From Amanita rubescens (taxonomy: Eukaryota; Basidiomycota; Agaricomycetes; Agaricales; Amanitaceae): a stretch of 64,000 nucleotides of DNA. A program made the translations under genes and the position numbers. The notes under the pieces are model-generated. The model had not been told where the DNA came from and made no database searches. It worked only from the letters and a program-made list of their open reading frames with translations. The stretch covers positions 1 to 64,000 of the forward strand of contig WION01000203.1 in the NCBI GenBank assembly GCA_015039365.1, in the 5' to 3' direction. Of the stretch, positions 11,850-57,271 are shown piece after piece. Numbering within the stretch: the stretch's first letter is position 1; the number at the start of each line of letters is the position of its first letter.

Positions 11850-12455
11850 TAACCTGCCATCCCCTGCGCAGAGTGTGACCGGATATTGAATTAATGTAAT
11901 ATAAATGGTACTATAGAATGTACAAGATGCTGATAGATTATGGATGTCCTTACCTCCTCTCGCTGCAACCTCTTAATCGGAATTCGTTTTGTCGTTTGCT
12001 TTGTGGTTAAAAGCTTACCGAGAAGCGCTCCGCTGATTTCATGTTGCCCATTTGGTGGAGTTCCAAATAATCCTTTGATGCGCATAACCTATCACCCGAA
12101 AGACAGGATCAGTCCGTTAGAGAGTGTCTAGAGCCCATGATTGCGATATCAGTCGCCGCTCCCGGGCCGCCGACCGTCGTGAACATCTTACGTTCTTACT
12201 GGGTTGCTTTATTGGGTCCGATCGAGCTGGCAGGATCGTAGGAGGATATATGTGATCGTATACGGACGCAGTAGTTAGCTCACAGGAGCGCCAAATGCCA
12301 GATCAAAGGGTGAGAGAACGAGGAAATTTGTTAGTGACGATTACTAATCACATGCCGCAGCTCCTTCTGCGTGCTCTTTAACTTTCAGGCTCTCCGTTCT
12401 TTACCTGTGCTTATTGCGAGCATCTCACTAGTATTTGCTAGATCAAACAATAGTT
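11850..12455. other. 3' flank of monooxygenase copy 1 and 5' flank of the GTPase gene
   Basis: No gene is seen. Up to about 11998 the sequence matches the 3' flank of the second monooxygenase copy (to about 23275). Beyond that point the copies diverge, so a duplication or deletion junction lies near 11998. The rest has ordinary CpG content, unlike the gene that follows. Confidence 0.45.
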
Positions 12456-15400
12456 ATGGCAGACTCGGAGATCACCGATGCACATCCGAGTCGTCAATCA
12501 AGGCTGGCAGAGATTTCAAAGTTAAACTACAATTCCGGCAAGGTGTCCAGTGAGTTTTATCATCAGTTGTTTGGATCTGAATTTGACTTGCTAACCGATG
12601 CAGACTTCTTGCTTAGGACACTTAAAGATCGATACAGATGCCCTTATTTTCGTATCCTTGTCATAGGGAGGGCTAATGCTGGAAAAACAACCATTCTTGA
12701 GAAGGTTTGTAGTGTGGCACGGGGGACAATCTCCATGATATATGACCAGAATGGTAAGCTGAGCTAAAATAAAGGCTTCTACTGTTGTGACATTCAGGAT
12801 TTTTAGGTGAAAAACTGGAACCCTCTAAAACACATTTGATGCCATCTGCTGAAGTGAGTCAAATAAAGGAATATGGATGCTTTCATGGATTGCAACAATC
12901 TTCAGAGGGGTCTCCATGAGATTGAGCACCAGATTACTTATAAAGGCAGCAACTTTGTCTTCCATGATTCCCAAGGATTTGAATCTGGTGGTACTGAGGA
13001 GCTGGAGCTTGTTTGGAAATTCATTGAAAAGCGTTCTGCTTCAATTGAGCTAAGAGATCAGCTACATGCAATTTGGTATTTTATTCTGGTTCTTTGCATT
13101 GCTGTGAATGAATGAATTTTCATAGGTATTGTATACCCATGGACAGCCCTCGCCCTCTCTTATCTGCAGAACTTGAATTTTTCAGCAAGGGAACTGGGAA
13201 GGGTAAGTCCTGTCCAAGGCCAACTGCAGTCTACATACATATAAATTTCATCTAAATAGTCCCCTTGGTGACTATATTCACTAAATTTGATGGCCAAATC
13301 ATTGCAGAATATGGAAAATTGTGTGATTCAGGAGAAGATAAAGATAAGTGGGGTGAAGCTAGGATAAATGCTAATGCTGCTTTCCAGCAAATTTATCTGC
13401 CCAAGGTTTTGAACACTAAACATCCTCCAAAAGCATATGTACAATTGGAAGGGAGGGAAAACAAATAATCCTTGTTGCAAAAGTAATGATTTTTGGCAGA
13501 TATGGATTTGCCAGAGAAGGACTGTCCTGAATTAGCTACAGTGACAGCAGAAGCAATTGATGATAGTAGCCTACAAGAACTCTTTGTCTCAACACAAATG
13601 AACAATCTTGATCTTTGTTCAAATACTGCACTTCAGTGAGGATCAGATTCAGAATGTTAATTTCAGATATTAACTACCCTTAGACATATCTTGGCTCAAA
13701 GTGAACTCTCATGGAGTACAGTCATGAGCATGGTTCTTAGCAAGTTTCCCCATTATTGGGTAGGTTTGCAAAATATTGTGATGTGGATCTACAAAGCTAA
13801 GTAAAAATCAGGTAGACAGAAATGTGAGCTCCATTTGTGCAAAGATGCATGGACTGTTGGGAAAATTGAAATAGGACGTGAGTATGATTTTCCAAAACAA
13901 ATGCTTGGTTGACTGATAATCAGGATGTATGTTACACTTTTCCCTTGACCTGTAGGAAGGTCTGATAGGCAACAACATCTTGAAAACAGGATAATGAAAT
14001 GAATGTGAGTGAAACTGCAACATTTTCTACAGTTATCTAATGACATTGATAACAGTGGGTAAGAAGTAGCCATGACCATGATACTAAGTGTTCATCTTAC
14101 CATCACCAGTTTGTGAGTGACATGGCCCATTTTTCTGCCATGCTTTTCATCCATGGCCCCACCAGAACTCCAGTGAGCAAAATTATATTCTGATAGGCCA
14201 TTTGATTACATAAGCATTGTACAACAAATAGAGAGTGTGTTATATTCCACACCACACATTATCATGCTATCTCAATTCCAACAGACTGTAAGTATCACTT
14301 TTTTTTCTGCAAAGATGCACCATGCATATCCTAATTTGCAACTGAATAAAGTGAGTATACCCACATTCTCTACCAGAGGCTTTGCATCTGATGCCACATG
14401 ACTAAAAGGCAGTGAGTGGTGCTGTACATTTCACTGCTAGGAACATCTGGCATCTCATTTGAGTCACTGTGTGACTAACAGACAGTAAGTTTACCCTGTT
14501 TTGTGTAGGGATCTCATTTCATTTTATCCTATTGTCAATAGCAGGTGAGCATACTTTGTTTTAATCACTTGGACTGCATCCCATTTCATGACCAACAGCC
14601 AGTGAGTGACTTTGTACATTTCTCTTGGGTGTTCAACATTATGCCAAATAGACAGTGGGTTTTTATGTAACCCTTTATTGTAGAACACCTGATCTCATTT
14701 CATGACCAGGAGGAAGTGAGTATTAACCAATAGAGTCCTCTGCCAAGCACTCACTCCTGACCTCATCTGATCACAATAGTTTGTAAGTGAATCTGCACAT
14801 TTTTTCCAGGCCATCTCATCATGTATATCACCAATAGAAAGTGAGTAACACCAACTGTTTGCTAGATGGCAGCCTCACTGATTAAAATGTTGTGACTAAT
14901 AGACAGTGAGTCACACTGCTATTTTCCCATGAAACACTGTTCCCATGCCACATGATGAATAGCTTGTAAGCATACAATTTGTGTGGTCAGGCAGTTTTCA
15001 GACTATGAGCCAACAGTTTGTGAGTGGTACTGTAGATTTGTTCTACTGCAACCTCAAAGATCTTGGCATACACTGTCATACAGTCTGTAAGTGGGCTGTG
15101 ATCTCTCAGGCAGTCTCCATATCTTATTCCAACAGGATGTAAGCAATGCTGCATTATTCCTGTCAGGCAATCTCATCTGCCAAATTTTGTGGTCTACAGA
15201 AAGTGAGTGATGTTATGCACATCTCCTAGCTAGTCTAAAGAATATATCATTGATGGCAAACAGTTTGTAGTGACATCATGCCCAACCTCGTGTTTTTGAT
15301 TTTCTTTGGTCATAGACAGTCAGTGATACATTATATTTTTTTTTTAGTCTCATTCTATTAACAACAGACAGTAAGTAACTCACATTTATAATATCATATC

Positions 15401-17516
15401 TCATACATTGACCAACAGAGAGTGAGTGGTAGCATAAACTTTATGGCAGATGGTCTTATCCCATGACCAACAGACAGTGAGCATCAGCCATATCTCTCAG
15501 ATAGGTTTATCTGAGTCATGTCATAAATCAAACAGAGAGTGAGTGATAGTGAATGATAGCCTTGTGTTGTGTTAAGCAATGTGTGTGAACAGTATGTAAG
15601 TGGTGCAGTGACACTGGTTGGCAAGTTTTCCCATATGTCTGCATTTCCAACAGATGGTGGTAAGAAGGAATCTTTCTTCAAATAGTTTTGTCATTTTGTC
15701 CCATGCAACAGAATGTAAGGAATGCTGTAACATATTTCTATTGATTATTATGTAATATGACCAATAGCAGTAAGTGTTATCAATTTTTTCTGAAAGGCAG
15801 TTTTTTTCTACATCATACATGACAGCATGTGAGTCAAATTGGACATTTCCCCACCAGGTGATCTTTCAACAGATCAATAGGGAGCCACTATGGTAAGTGA
15901 CACTTTACATTTTCCTCAGTTCATCTCATTGCAATACAATGAACAGCAAGTATGCACCACTATACCTTTCTTTTTTTGTTAAACACACTCACCTTGGACA
16001 AAAGCTTGTGTGTATCACTGAATATCCTCTTTCTTTCAACTTAAACACTCATGACATGATTGACCTCAGAAAGTGAGTAACAATGCATTTTCCTTTTCTA
16101 CATACTTTATTGCATGACCAAAAGAGTGTAAGTCATATTGCACATATTTCCACTTATGTAGTCCAAGTCTCATCCATGACCAATAGATGGTAGAAACATA
16201 TATCTTTTACCAGGCAAACTCCTATCCCATACTAATGACCAGCAGTGAGTGACACCAGCATTGATCTCTGCACATTCTCACTGTATGTATAATTGTCAGT
16301 TTGTGAGTGATGATGCATTTATTCTGCCAATTAATGTCATCACATTCAATTCTATCATGACAGTTTGTGAGTGACACCATATTCCTTTCCTCAGCTGTCT
16401 CATCATAGTATTACATTGCATTGATGGAGTAGGAAGTAAGTGATTCTGTATTTTGGAAACCTTATCAAATGAATCCTCATCAACAGGAAGTAAGCAATAT
16501 CATATTTTATTGGACAGTCTAATTGATTCCAATCCAATGTCCAATAGGTGGTAAGTGATTTTAGAAAAATTCTCTTGAGACTTATATCTTATCATCTCAT
16601 CCCATGACCATCAGGAAGTGAGTAATACAATGGTCATGCCAACTTCTTATTACAATTATCACCTGAAAAGGAAGTGAGTGCCACTGTATTTTTTCTCCTA
16701 GACAGTGTCATTATACTGCATTGCATGTGTTAGGCAGTGAGTGCCACAATCTTGTTTTATGGGTAACTTCAGCACATGATTAACAGCAGTGAGTGGCAAT
16801 GCACACACTTGGGCATGAATATCTCATCCATTGTCAATAGGAGGTAAGTGGATCAAGTTTTTCCCAAAGTGTACAACTTAGTGACATGTGTAAACTCATC
16901 AGAAAGTAAGTAAAGACTAGCCTACTCATATTTTTTTTCTTCATTGATTTTACTGCTGTATATTCATAGATTGTAAGATATTATTTACACCCCTTTGTGA
17001 CAGATTTATTCTTTCACCCTTTAGGTGAGAAATGATATTATTAATGGTTTTAATGAACATGCTAATTCATCTCTTACATAGCTAGTATGTTCACATCTAA
17101 ATTTCAATTGAAGAGTATTGCCATCATCATTCAAAGTCTGAGCTTTTCTCTTCATTTGGAGATGCAAAAACAAGCTTTTTCAAGGATGTAAGACCTACAT
17201 ATCTTTGATATACAATATGCAATTAACCCTCTTGTGATCAGATCACAGCTTGCCAAATCCTAGTTGGTAATGTGTTCAATTATGTTGGATTTACTTGCTG
17301 GGCTAATATCCAAAAGCAATCAATATCATTGCCAAGCTATCATTCTTTATCAAGAAGCCAATCCAGGCTTCAATCTTGGATGCCTTGGACCAGTTCAAGA
17401 CACAAGACTGTGCAGAGAACCTGAAGATTCAGATGACTTCAAAGTCTATACCCTCTGATGAGGATGATTTGTATACATTTCTCTATGAACAGATTACTAC
17501 CCATGTGACCCAGTGA
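12456..17516 (+). CDS. P-loop GTPase-like protein with a micro-exon tail
   Basis: The 5' half encodes a clear G domain spread over normal exons (12456-12753, 12798-12853, 12906-13075, 13126-13202, 13260-13451, then from 13500). The motifs are G1 GRANAGKTT, G3 DSQGFE and G4 TKFD, with WYCIPMDSPRP between. This matches the large basidiomycete family of HSR1/IMAP-like G-domain proteins, whose role is unknown. The exon ending at 13451 has a GG instead of GT donor, so this gene may be damaged or use an unusual site. From 13760 the gene becomes a chain of micro-exons to 16972 (described separately). Longer open segments follow at about 17078-17187 and 17308-17516; the latter ends SDEDDLYTFLYEQITTHVTQ before TGA at 17514-17516. 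The G domain is firm. The joining of the micro-exon part and the terminal exon is inference. Confidence 0.6.
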
Positions 17517-17775
17517 TGGTGTGTGCATGCACAGTTTGCATGGGAAATATGCTCAAATATGCTACAGGTCAGAATGGGATATTAAAGACTATGACATGTT
17601 CAACTACCTATCTTTCTTCCCAGTCTGCCCATTTTGTTTGTCTGTATATCATTCCTTTGTCTGGCATCCATACATTTCATTTAAAGCTGTTTTTCTTTTC
17701 AACATGGTACTGCAGCCTTTGTTGACTTGTATATTGATGCTCTGCCTTCAAGTTTGTAATGTAAATGTGTCCCTT
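13200..17775. other. CpG-void island
   Basis: Reading line by line, only two CG dinucleotides were found between 13200 and 17775 (near 13877 and 15289), while flanking DNA on both sides has CG in nearly every line. At the local base composition of roughly 38-40% GC (estimated by eye), well over a hundred would be expected. TG and CA are abundant, as left by deamination of methylated CpG. The right edge is sharp near 17776, where the ordinary flank of the next gene begins. The left edge is gradual through the G-domain exons. Confidence 0.85.
13760..16972 (+). repeat. array of 54 apparent micro-exons, 45 of them exactly 3 nt
   Basis: The strand reads as a regular chain: acceptor (CAG or TAG), a few bases, donor (GTGAGT or GTAAGT), then an intron of 46-70 nt. 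Exons longer than 3 nt: 13812-13823, 13990-14004, 14166-14172, 14710-14715, 15654-15659, 15881-15892. Two-nt exons start at 15768, 16243, 16787. Three-nt exons start at 13875, 13924, 14056, 14110, 14232, 14285, 14348, 14409, 14482, 14542, 14599, 14652, 14780, 14838, 14903, 14963, 15017, 15084, 15136, 15200, 15264, 15316, 15368, 15419, 15474, 15536, 15593, 15712, 15826, 15947, 16005, 16070, 16125, 16187, 16300, 16364, 16433, 16487, 16548, 16615, 16671, 16734, 16841, 16903, 16970. The one at 14348 lacks an AG acceptor. Read as whole codons, none of the triplet-multiple exons contains a stop, while the first exon stops in both other phases. The introns resemble one another: the starts are like GTGAGTGACACTG and the ends like CATGACCAACAG. 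The pattern is seen directly; splicing is inferred. Confidence 0.7.
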
Positions 17776-55861: not shown

Positions 55862-57148
55862 ATGGCATCCCTTAACGCATGGCGTCAAGTTCATCTCAAT
55901 CGTCAAGGGATGAATAATGTGCATCGACTCTTTGGGATTGCGCCTGCAATTTATCAAGAATTTTCGAAGCGCTTTGCTGCTGCCGAGCTTGCATGGTTTG
56001 TTGGTGGAGCATCTAATGATGGGTTACACTTACAGTTACGTGATTTTCCCTCAATTCTATGAATTACTAACGCTTTATTAGGGTTGCTCCGGACGGTCTT
56101 CACCCACTATTCACGGAAGTTCACGGAAATTCCTATGATGCAGAAACCCGTGTAGCGCTGTTAGATTTACTTTTTGACGTTGTAAGTTATTTATCTGTTA
56201 CAATAGATGATCTCTAATTTATGTCAGGCCACTGTACTTGATCGTGCGTATGGTGGGAGTACTATGGTTATCCAATTGCATGGTACCATGCGTCCGAATG
56301 CGCCTATCCTCCCTGCATATATGAAGACTAGTGTTTACATGCCCCCAGTCATTGTTCGCGACGTTCCACTTTGGGAGCATTCACGTCTCATTCATATAAC
56401 TCAGGAGTTTCTTGAGGTAATCGGAACACGGGCGGTTACGCGTTTTCAGGATGCTCTTCGGCACCGTGCATGGAGGTACCGTCAACCATCAGAAACAGTA
56501 GCTAGGGTCAACCCTCGTCAAAACACTCTTCCCACACCTGTGGGAGGCTCAGCGTGTTATGTCATTCACGGACATCCAGTTGCCGAGACGTCTAGTAGTG
56601 TGGACAATAATGTATCCCCTCCCCCCGATCATTCGATAACCACGCTCCAAGCAGAAAATACCGAGTTACGTACTCGCCTTACAGCAGCGATCGATGAGAT
56701 TACTCTTCTCAAGTTGCGGATCCAGGACCTTGAATGTCAAGTCCAGGGACACGCTACCAATACTCGGAGTTTTGCGCACACTTTAACACGCCCAGTCTCA
56801 ATGCCGCACACTACGCTATCCTCCCATCAGCGTCCTAGCGCTGTGCCGCACACTACGCTATCCTCCCATCAGCATCCTAGCACTGTGCCGCGCACTATGC
56901 TATCCTCTCATCAGCGTCCTAGCACTGTGCTGGATGATGATCAACTGCCCATGTATTCGGCCGCTCCACTCTCTTTTGAGGATGTTGTAGAGAGGAATGG
57001 CCTTGATTCTTCTGTTGACACCATTGTCCAGATTGCTGAGTTTTTCCCAGATGAAAATTGGAAATGTGCACTTGATGCCATTGGTATTGATCAGAATGCC
57101 ATTCTGGAATTGGTTAATACGATGCAGGGAATGCGTGTCAGTGATTAA
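55862..57148 (+). CDS. accessory gene A of the KDZ element, function unknown
   Basis: Three exons (55862 to about 56034, about 56082-56180, and from about 56228), starting MASLNAWRQVHLNRQGMNNV. The middle contains MVIQLHGTMRPNAPILPAYM. A coiled coil (TTLQAENTELRTRLTAAIDE) precedes a threefold 14-residue repeat (HTTLSSHQRPSAVP, HTTLSSHQHPSTVP and a third), then a short acidic C-terminal domain with WKCALDAIGIDQNAIL. No known domain was recognised. Because it lies within the inverted repeats it moves with the transposon. Confidence 0.7.
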
Positions 57149-57271
57149 CTAGTCTTCGTTGAAGTGATGGATTTCGGTAATTAACTAGTCTTGACTTGAA
57201 GTGATGGATTTCGGTAATTAACTATAGTCTTGACTTGAAGTGATGGATTTCGGTAATTAACTAGTCTTGAC
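57143..57271 (+). repeat. short tandem repeat after accessory gene A
   Basis: A unit of about 40 bp (GAAGTGATGGATTTCGGTAA with TTAACTAGTCTTGACTT) repeats three times directly after the stop codon of gene A. The first unit overlaps the stop. Confidence 0.8.

Follow-up and report, generated by a model that had tools for sequence, protein, structure and literature searches.

Genes with many very short exons have been described in Schistosoma as micro-exon genes (MEGs): the available part of one account gives 35 genes with 10–20 short exons of 6–81 bp (a range of 3–81 is also given), mostly of 15 bp, introns of 0.1–5 kb and secreted products with a signal peptide (PMC10526429). Exons of only 1–3 nt can also be included by spliceosomes, examples in the available parts of two further sources being the 1-nt exons of APC11 in Arabidopsis and of CYP621A in Fusarium and the 3-bp exon of homothorax in Drosophila (PMC8831610; PMC12940212). 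Here we analyze a gene of the mushroom Amanita rubescens in which a GTPase domain (G domain) is followed by a chain of predicted exons, most of them a single codon long. It lies in the first 64,000 nucleotides of contig WION01000203.1 (forward strand, assembly GCA_015039365.1), and this whole stretch is called the window. Judged from sequence, the chain is very probably the middle of a protein-coding gene, and the spliceosome likely joins the predicted one-codon exons into a variable tail that links the GTPase domain to a conserved C-terminal region. The parts of the gene are the following.

12456-12753, 12807-12853, 12906-13075, 13126-13202, 13260-13451, 13500-13635 and 13684-13759, plus strand: the seven exons of the G-domain part, based on exon joins, translation and relatives.
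13812..13823, plus strand: 12-nt exon GTAGACAGAAAT (VDRN), the first after the G domain, which aligns with V-I-R-E behind FPHYW in protein P0021 (see below).
13875..16972, plus strand: chain of 52 predicted micro-exons, from the chain parse with a prior for 3 nt.
13875 (GAC), 13924 (GAT), 13990 (15 nt, DNEMN), 14056 (TGG) and 14110 (TTT), plus strand: first exons of the chain.
16841 (GAG), 16903 (AAA) and 16970 (ATT), plus strand: last exons of the chain.
17137-17187, 17242-17266 and 17317-17516, plus strand: terminal coding exons, starting in phase 0 and ending with a stop at 17,516, translation SELFSSFGDAKTSFFKD-ITACQILV-AINIIAKLSFFIKKPIQ...ITTHVTQ*.

The initial annotation of the window, made from its letters alone, had counted about 54 micro-exons, 45 of them single codons. 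Our parse agrees with this, giving 52 exons in addition to the 12-nt exon at 13,812; 45 are 3 nt long, two have 2 nt and there is one each of 6, 7, 12, 15 and 35 nt. The introns measure mostly 48–66 nt and have GTRAGT-like donors and TGACCAACAG-like ends. The repeated succession of intron end, three bases and donor is likewise found on the plus strand as described: between 13,701 and 17,000 the form [CT]AG-N3-GTRAG[TC] occurs 30 times on the plus and 0 times on the minus strand, and the same form with any other spacing from 0 to 30 nt occurs 0–3 times each on the plus strand. That the exon lengths are nearly all multiples of three is correct for 48 of the 52 and fails for the two 2-nt exons, the 7-nt and the 35-nt exon. 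The statement that no stop is present holds for 44 of the 45 single-codon exons, the exception being a TGA at 16,246, to which we return below. Tandem Repeats Finder (score >=40) listed no array at the chain, and the units of this gene have thus diverged outside the splice signals.

Joined, the G-domain exons (12456..13759) give a single open frame which begins with a leader, continues into the G domain and ends with ...SKFPHYW in phase 0. An earlier model of the exon before 13,759 (ILTT...) contained a stop and was discarded, as a paralogue on contig C1 places the end of the preceding intron at 13,683. The protein contains GRANAGKTT (P-loop), DSQG (DxxG) and TKFD (TKxD), which we take to be the G1, G3 and G4 motifs; together with the fold matches of a model of P0021 (see below) they mark a TRAFAC-class GTPase of the MMR_HSR1-like kind. 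Pfam MMR_HSR1 matches the window protein below the cut-off (E=0.0014) and the related protein P0088 above it. Four other A. rubescens genes, one on C124 and three on C1 (near 110.7 kb on the plus strand, and at 112 kb and 68.8 kb on the minus strand), have ends 36–40% identical to the terminal exons of the window gene, and its C-terminus resembles those of the proteins P0021, P0035 and P0036.

The window is part of contig C117 of the 75.7-Mb assembly, and all genome-wide counts refer to the whole assembly. This is repeat-rich, and in the G-domain search many loci were present on 2–4 contigs (C117, C772, C778 and C386, and many pairs); the assembly therefore keeps haplotypes or duplicates, and the counts, which include the duplicate contigs, are inflated. 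The strict site CAG-N3-GTRAGT occurs 8,362 times genome-wide, compared to 1,242 times for the reversed pattern used as control. Spacings of 4 nt (1,066 vs 1,370 in the control) and 6 nt (1,292 vs 1,402) are not above control. For parsing complete arrays, position weights for donors (8 nt) and acceptors (16 nt) were built from 378 distinct introns between strict sites. When all exon lengths from 1 to 60 nt were taken as equally likely, 873 of the 1,016 exons in 32 arrays were exactly 3 nt long; among the remainder, 87 exons of 49–60 nt each resembled one missed weak intron, and 11 of the 18 exons of 7 nt were a 3-nt exon followed by GCAA. A second parse, which favoured 3 nt by a prior and allowed GC donors, gave 1,060 exons of 3 nt among 1,107. 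Dropping 13 rows from the same loci left a non-redundant set of 19 arrays with 623 of 650 exons of 3 nt. With the reverse complement of eight arrays as control, only chains of one or two introns were obtained in six, and the other two had real arrays on both strands. By both parses these are thus very short consecutive coding exons, mostly multiples of three, of the kind that define the MEG type. The introns of the family measure mostly about 46–71 nt, and the donor and acceptor signals on both sides of the exons score as consensus. Some micro-exons on C1, C124, C108 and C439 have GCAAGT-like donors (GC-AG introns).

The triplets avoid stop codons. No stop is found among the 873 single-codon exons of the free-length parse; the second parse contains five, every one at a donor scoring only -4.7 to -5.8. 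In the 623 triplets of the non-redundant set there are 4 stops, compared to 49.4 expected from base composition. Genome-wide the strict motif encloses TAA or TGA, the only stops searched, 15 times (54 in the reversed control) and their anagrams AAT or GAT 547 times (39 in the control).

The triplets are also conserved as protein. Chains often start with WFE.GKK, and three end with KERD.R..F. Comparing the end motif of C1 and C124, 9 of 12 residues are the same, and the introns in between are 61–73% alike, as against 62% (standard deviation 5) for random pairs. At the start motif the introns are 82% alike at the same position and 61% at different positions (210 pairs), with 88% for the codon bases; since these introns are still related, the conservation of the start says less than the comparison of the ends. 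Codon usage within the chains is peculiar. Several amino acids use nearly a single codon (Phe TTT, Asp GAT, Tyr TAT), with TTT 51 times and TTC never, GAT 51 times and GAC once, and C directly precedes the donor in 0.6% of the 623 triplets, compared to 20 of 97 codons in the first exon of the window gene; G is also seldom found there. The near-absence of C before the donor is likely a splicing constraint. As far as can be judged from the letters, these data support the view that the triplets are used like coding exons, since they avoid stops and their residues are conserved.

The joined residues of such a chain are present in a public protein. P0021 (478 aa, source jgi) is encoded on a 1,486-nt contig. 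Behind FPHYW it continues with VIREEDDKHNEID and then with 49 residues, 40 of which are identical, without a gap and with one residue per exon, to the chain at C1:31,250-34,151, which extends over 2.9 kb of the genome; one exon of this chain has 4 nt, and P0021 has Ser there. This match scores 231, whereas 500 shuffles averaged 31 and never exceeded 52. The highest listed identity to P0021 is that of the adjoining region C1:29,740-30,945, where two G-domain exons reach 86% and 90%; the matches at some other loci are longer and less similar. P0021 also lacks the introns which the C1 locus has in its G domain. As a contig of 1,486 nt is too short to accommodate the introns, we infer that P0021 represents a spliced transcript of another Amanita, the contig being probably a transcript from a relative of A. 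rubescens. Used as queries, the tail and the C-terminal part of P0021 recovered no protein but P0021 itself. The terminal exon of the matching C1 gene (L009, C1:34,200 onwards) is frame-shifted; this copy, although the best match to P0021, may be damaged or contain consensus errors.

We extended the comparison to 11 proteins from short contigs, taken from 19 inspected, the other eight apparently stopping either ahead of the tail or shortly after it begins. Against the best of the 32 chains, six of the 11 reached z>=9 (P0005, P0021, P0026, P0035, P0036 and P0083); these six sit on separate contigs of 1.4–1.9 kb. The claim of the initial annotation that the triplets are coding exons is hence upheld by stop avoidance, by residue conservation and by the joined residues of P0021. 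It had also named in advance an outcome that would speak against exons, namely transcripts jumping from about 13,759 to beyond 16,973; P0021 does not make this jump, and the model of a paralogue, P0092, very nearly does.

These data bear on two alternative explanations. According to the first, the chain is what remains of a tandem repeat that has decayed within one large intron; the splice-like words are kept for some other reason and the triplets never enter the mRNA. The units on C79, which form a plain 65-bp tandem array with near-identical spacers, would fit such an origin, and so would the absence of the triplets from the 11 A. rubescens gene models inspected. This explanation does not account for the avoidance of stop triplets, the enrichment of 3 nt alone among the spacings tested, the conservation of residues where the spacers are not conserved and the presence of the residues in order in P0021, and we regard it as extremely improbable.

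According to the second, the relatives that supply the short-contig proteins have no introns in these genes, whereas in A. rubescens introns have invaded an old coding sequence at nearly all of its codon boundaries; proteins and chains would then agree through common descent and not through splicing. It is true that identical introns between different codons resemble the repeated insertion of one intron and that the short-contig proteins are known from protein sequence alone. But an intronless origin would have to extend to the G-domain introns missing from P0021 and to six members on separate contigs of 1.4–1.9 kb; moreover, variants of the introns travel with blocks of codons as predicted by unit duplication, and the A. 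rubescens gene must still join its triplets to make a protein. We consider this explanation very unlikely. Introners with a 3-bp target-site duplication were rejected as a source of the units, because the triplets flanking an intron mostly differ. We prefer to regard the chain as spliced coding sequence and infer that the A. rubescens genes are spliced like transcripts of the P0021 type.

The chain is not restricted to the window gene. The G-domain search gave at least 334 exon matches at E<=0.001 genome-wide, with 129 of 912 candidates scored and duplicate contigs counted. Each of the 27 assembled segments contained 5 or more strict sites on the same strand. Of these segments, 21 were the window or came from the G-domain search, being the genes most like that of the window, and six had been chosen for their arrays. 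In the opposite direction, five of seven arrays chosen because no neighbouring G domain was listed had G-domain exons upstream. For one array (L058) tblastn found no G domain within reach, and its chain matches P0005 (score 76; maximum of 1,000 shuffles 46). Another (L055, C26:118,400-122,900, minus strand) has a 10-exon chain at one end of a 4.5-kb stretch in which no G domain was detected. Among the arrays followed to their end and compared, the terminal exon was found, besides the sibling contig of the window, behind five chains, namely on C124, behind three arrays on C1 and in frame-shifted form at C1:34,200 onwards. The one-codon chain, with about 40–80 predicted exons, is therefore a trait of a large GTPase gene family and not of the window gene alone. 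As 354 of the 623 parsed 3-nt exons carry the strict motif, we roughly estimate that the assembly, duplicates included, holds 12,000–13,000 one-codon exons.

The tail is the variable part of the proteins. Of the 260 G-domain residues up to NNLDLC, 257 are common to P0035 and P0036, as are 87 of the 92 C-terminal ones; their tails have 60 and 77 residues, a difference of 17, and are alike in 34 of 58 aligned residues. We considered whether the exons, being real, serve to generate isoforms, with variable subsets skipped and many in-frame tails made per gene. Single codons in phase 0 would allow this, since skipping any subset keeps the frame open, and the two proteins just mentioned, with almost the same G domain and tails of different length, could be read in this way, as could the P0092 model, which leaves out the chain. 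However, P0021 has a residue for all 49 predicted exons without a skip, and P0035 and P0036 differ also by substitutions, which makes separate genes or alleles more likely than a pair of isoforms. Extensive skipping of this kind appears unlikely to us. A more distant relative, P0124 (jgi, 458 aa; chain match z 0.8), has a stretch rich in His, Glu and Tyr near the position of the tail, and other fungi may thus vary the same region.

In the young array on C79, which is the plain 65-bp tandem array mentioned above, 1,727 unit pairs are flanked on both sides by introns that are >=95% alike; their introns differ at 1.6% of sites and their codons at 65%. Of these pairs, 287 have identical introns on both sides, and 226 of the 287 carry different codons. 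On C8, 132 unit pairs differ by 1.9% in the introns and by 54% in the codons. At C1:100-115 kb no pair has both introns 95% alike, and this region adds nothing to the divergence test. Codons that stay different while introns converge may be explained, in our preferred reading, by selection on the codons together with homogenisation of the introns. Intron variants recur together with blocks of codons, which points to duplication and recombination of units. C667 is one unit, and hence one residue, short of C79, with a collapse in the assembly as the alternative; these two contigs were read by their intron variants, since MAFFT gave 18 apparent codon differences because of the unit missing in C667. 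Between the contigs of the pairs C79/C239, C1/C170, C124/C410 and C108/C97 there are no exon differences, and the introns differ by 0–0.4%. Gain or loss of one repeat unit would mean gain or loss of one amino acid. We tentatively propose, as a possibility rather than an expectation, that the single codons are exchangeable modules and that the near-identical introns recombine, adding, removing or swapping one residue with the frame unbroken. If true, this would be a system for single-residue diversification, possibly in self/non-self or pathogen recognition in mushrooms.

Several observations weigh against reading the chain as spliced coding exons. The prior of the second parse itself favours 3-nt exons, a bias from which the free-length parse is free. 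The probable status of P0021 and the other short-contig proteins as products of transcripts is deduced from length (478 aa in 1,486 nt for P0021) and the lack of introns. Five of the 11 short-contig proteins (P0023, P0046, P0071, P0088 and P0124) match no chain (z 0.8–2.6). Chain residues were present in none of 11 A. rubescens gene models inspected by eye: P0001–P0003 end before the chain, P0006, P0009, P0011, P0034, P0037, P0057 and P0115 end or go astray just behind FPHxW, and P0092, from a contig of 976,794, passes from FPHYWVMMKQ almost straight into the terminal exons. In the last case either the chain was skipped by an annotation error or a skipping isoform exists. As the models inspected miss the chain, similar genes may be hidden elsewhere. 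The variability is also not limited to the chain, as the ordinary exon just before it is alike in only 22 of 32 residues between P0035 and P0036. Finally, the window copy has irregularities of its own; the first two listed here, and the donor described thereafter, belong to the observations on this side.

14166..14172, plus strand: 7-nt exon AACTCCA, which departs from the 3-nt rule and is present in all three contigs of the locus compared.
14377..14411, plus strand: parsed as a 35-nt exon, with a weak acceptor (-0.5), recurring in C772, C778 and C386.
15,768, 16,246 and 16,787 (within 15768..16788), plus strand: single-base gaps, the base being present in both sibling contigs.

The 35-nt stretch is possibly a missed weak intron, its last three bases GCA being the candidate true exon. 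The 2-nt exons at 15,768 and 16,787 and the TGA at 16,246, which is followed by a poor donor, arise because the window contig has one base fewer than both siblings at each place. In a comparison of three contigs over 12,400-17,599, 6 substitutions and 15 missing bases were private to the window contig, which also has 1 extra base; C772 showed 18 private substitutions together with 27 extra bases. Neither contig is therefore free of defects. The single-base gaps are likely consensus errors; recent real losses are the alternative. The donor after 13451 (behind ...YVQLE) is GG (GAAGGGAGG) in the window contig and two siblings, where the C1 paralogue has GTAGG.

In view of the 7-nt exon, the 35-nt stretch and this donor the window copy may be non-functional, and one could argue that it is a pseudogene and that only other members of the family work. 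The 7-nt exon and the GG donor in all three contigs would fit this, as would the two 2-nt exons and the TGA of the window contig. These latter defects are missing from both sibling contigs, and between C772 and C386 the exons are less divergent (5 of 181 sites) than the introns (134 of 2,998), a weak argument given the few exon sites. A pseudogene in the window is a possibility we take seriously, while leaning towards a working gene. Elsewhere in the window there are tandem repeats with 42-bp and 37-bp units at 56802-56930 and 57144-57271.

For the protein, an AlphaFold2 model of P0021 (from 8 sequences; mean predicted local distance difference test 67.5) has a GTPase-like fold and a helical C-terminus. 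In the tail a helix at 324-343, formed by the first tail residues, is followed by a segment of low confidence (344-358) and a helix at 361-382. The best structural matches of the model are immunity-related GTPases (IRGs) with 8–12% identity and high root-mean-square deviation, and, for the G domain alone, septins and EngB follow within about 1.2 in Z. Among the sequences of solved structures nothing was found below E=0.08, and the best matches were at the P-loop only. Because the IRG matches are weak and other GTPases are close behind, a function can be suggested from this model only with caution. We think that the tail may be a fast-evolving recognition or interaction loop, as it is modelled between two helices, its first and last codons are conserved and its middle varies in length and sequence. 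We know of no micro-exon chain in IRGs.

Expression of such a gene would require that dozens of introns of about 46–71 nt are removed, the protein tail being assembled one amino acid at a time. The short introns with strong donors would be recognized by intron definition, and their removal is probably sequential, since neighbouring introns can hardly be bound together around 3 nt. Recursive splicing, which the initial annotation suggested, may act on the chain; its form at zero-length exons was rejected, as a conserved codon separates AG from GT. Three nucleotides are fewer than a single U1 snRNP covers. Models of exon and intron definition presuppose exons with room for splicing factors, and predicted 3-nt exons recurring by the dozen in one transcript would offer a natural system for studying the order and definition of intron removal. 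They further suggest a way in which each recombination event could alter a protein region by a single residue while the frame is kept. Among the matches listed in our literature search we found neither chains of single-codon exons nor Amanita microexons, subscription journals and preprints being mostly outside its scope.

The bicycle genes of aphids resemble the present family in having many small exons, fast evolution and a large number of members; they differ in that their exons are longer and mixed in length and their products are secreted insect effectors. With the Schistosoma MEGs, as far as the available part of their description goes, the A. rubescens genes share a large number of tiny exons whose lengths are for the most part divisible by three; such genes are hard to annotate automatically and encode variable proteins (PMC10526429). 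The mixed exon lengths, mostly of 15 bp, and the introns of 0.1–5 kb that mark MEGs are not found here. In contrast to MEGs, nearly all exons have 3 nt, about 40–80 of them stand in a row with introns of about 46–71 nt, and the gene encodes a GTPase in a mushroom. The ultra-short exons of APC11, CYP621A and homothorax are reported to stand alone, each in an otherwise ordinary gene, whereas in A. rubescens they form chains of repeated units.

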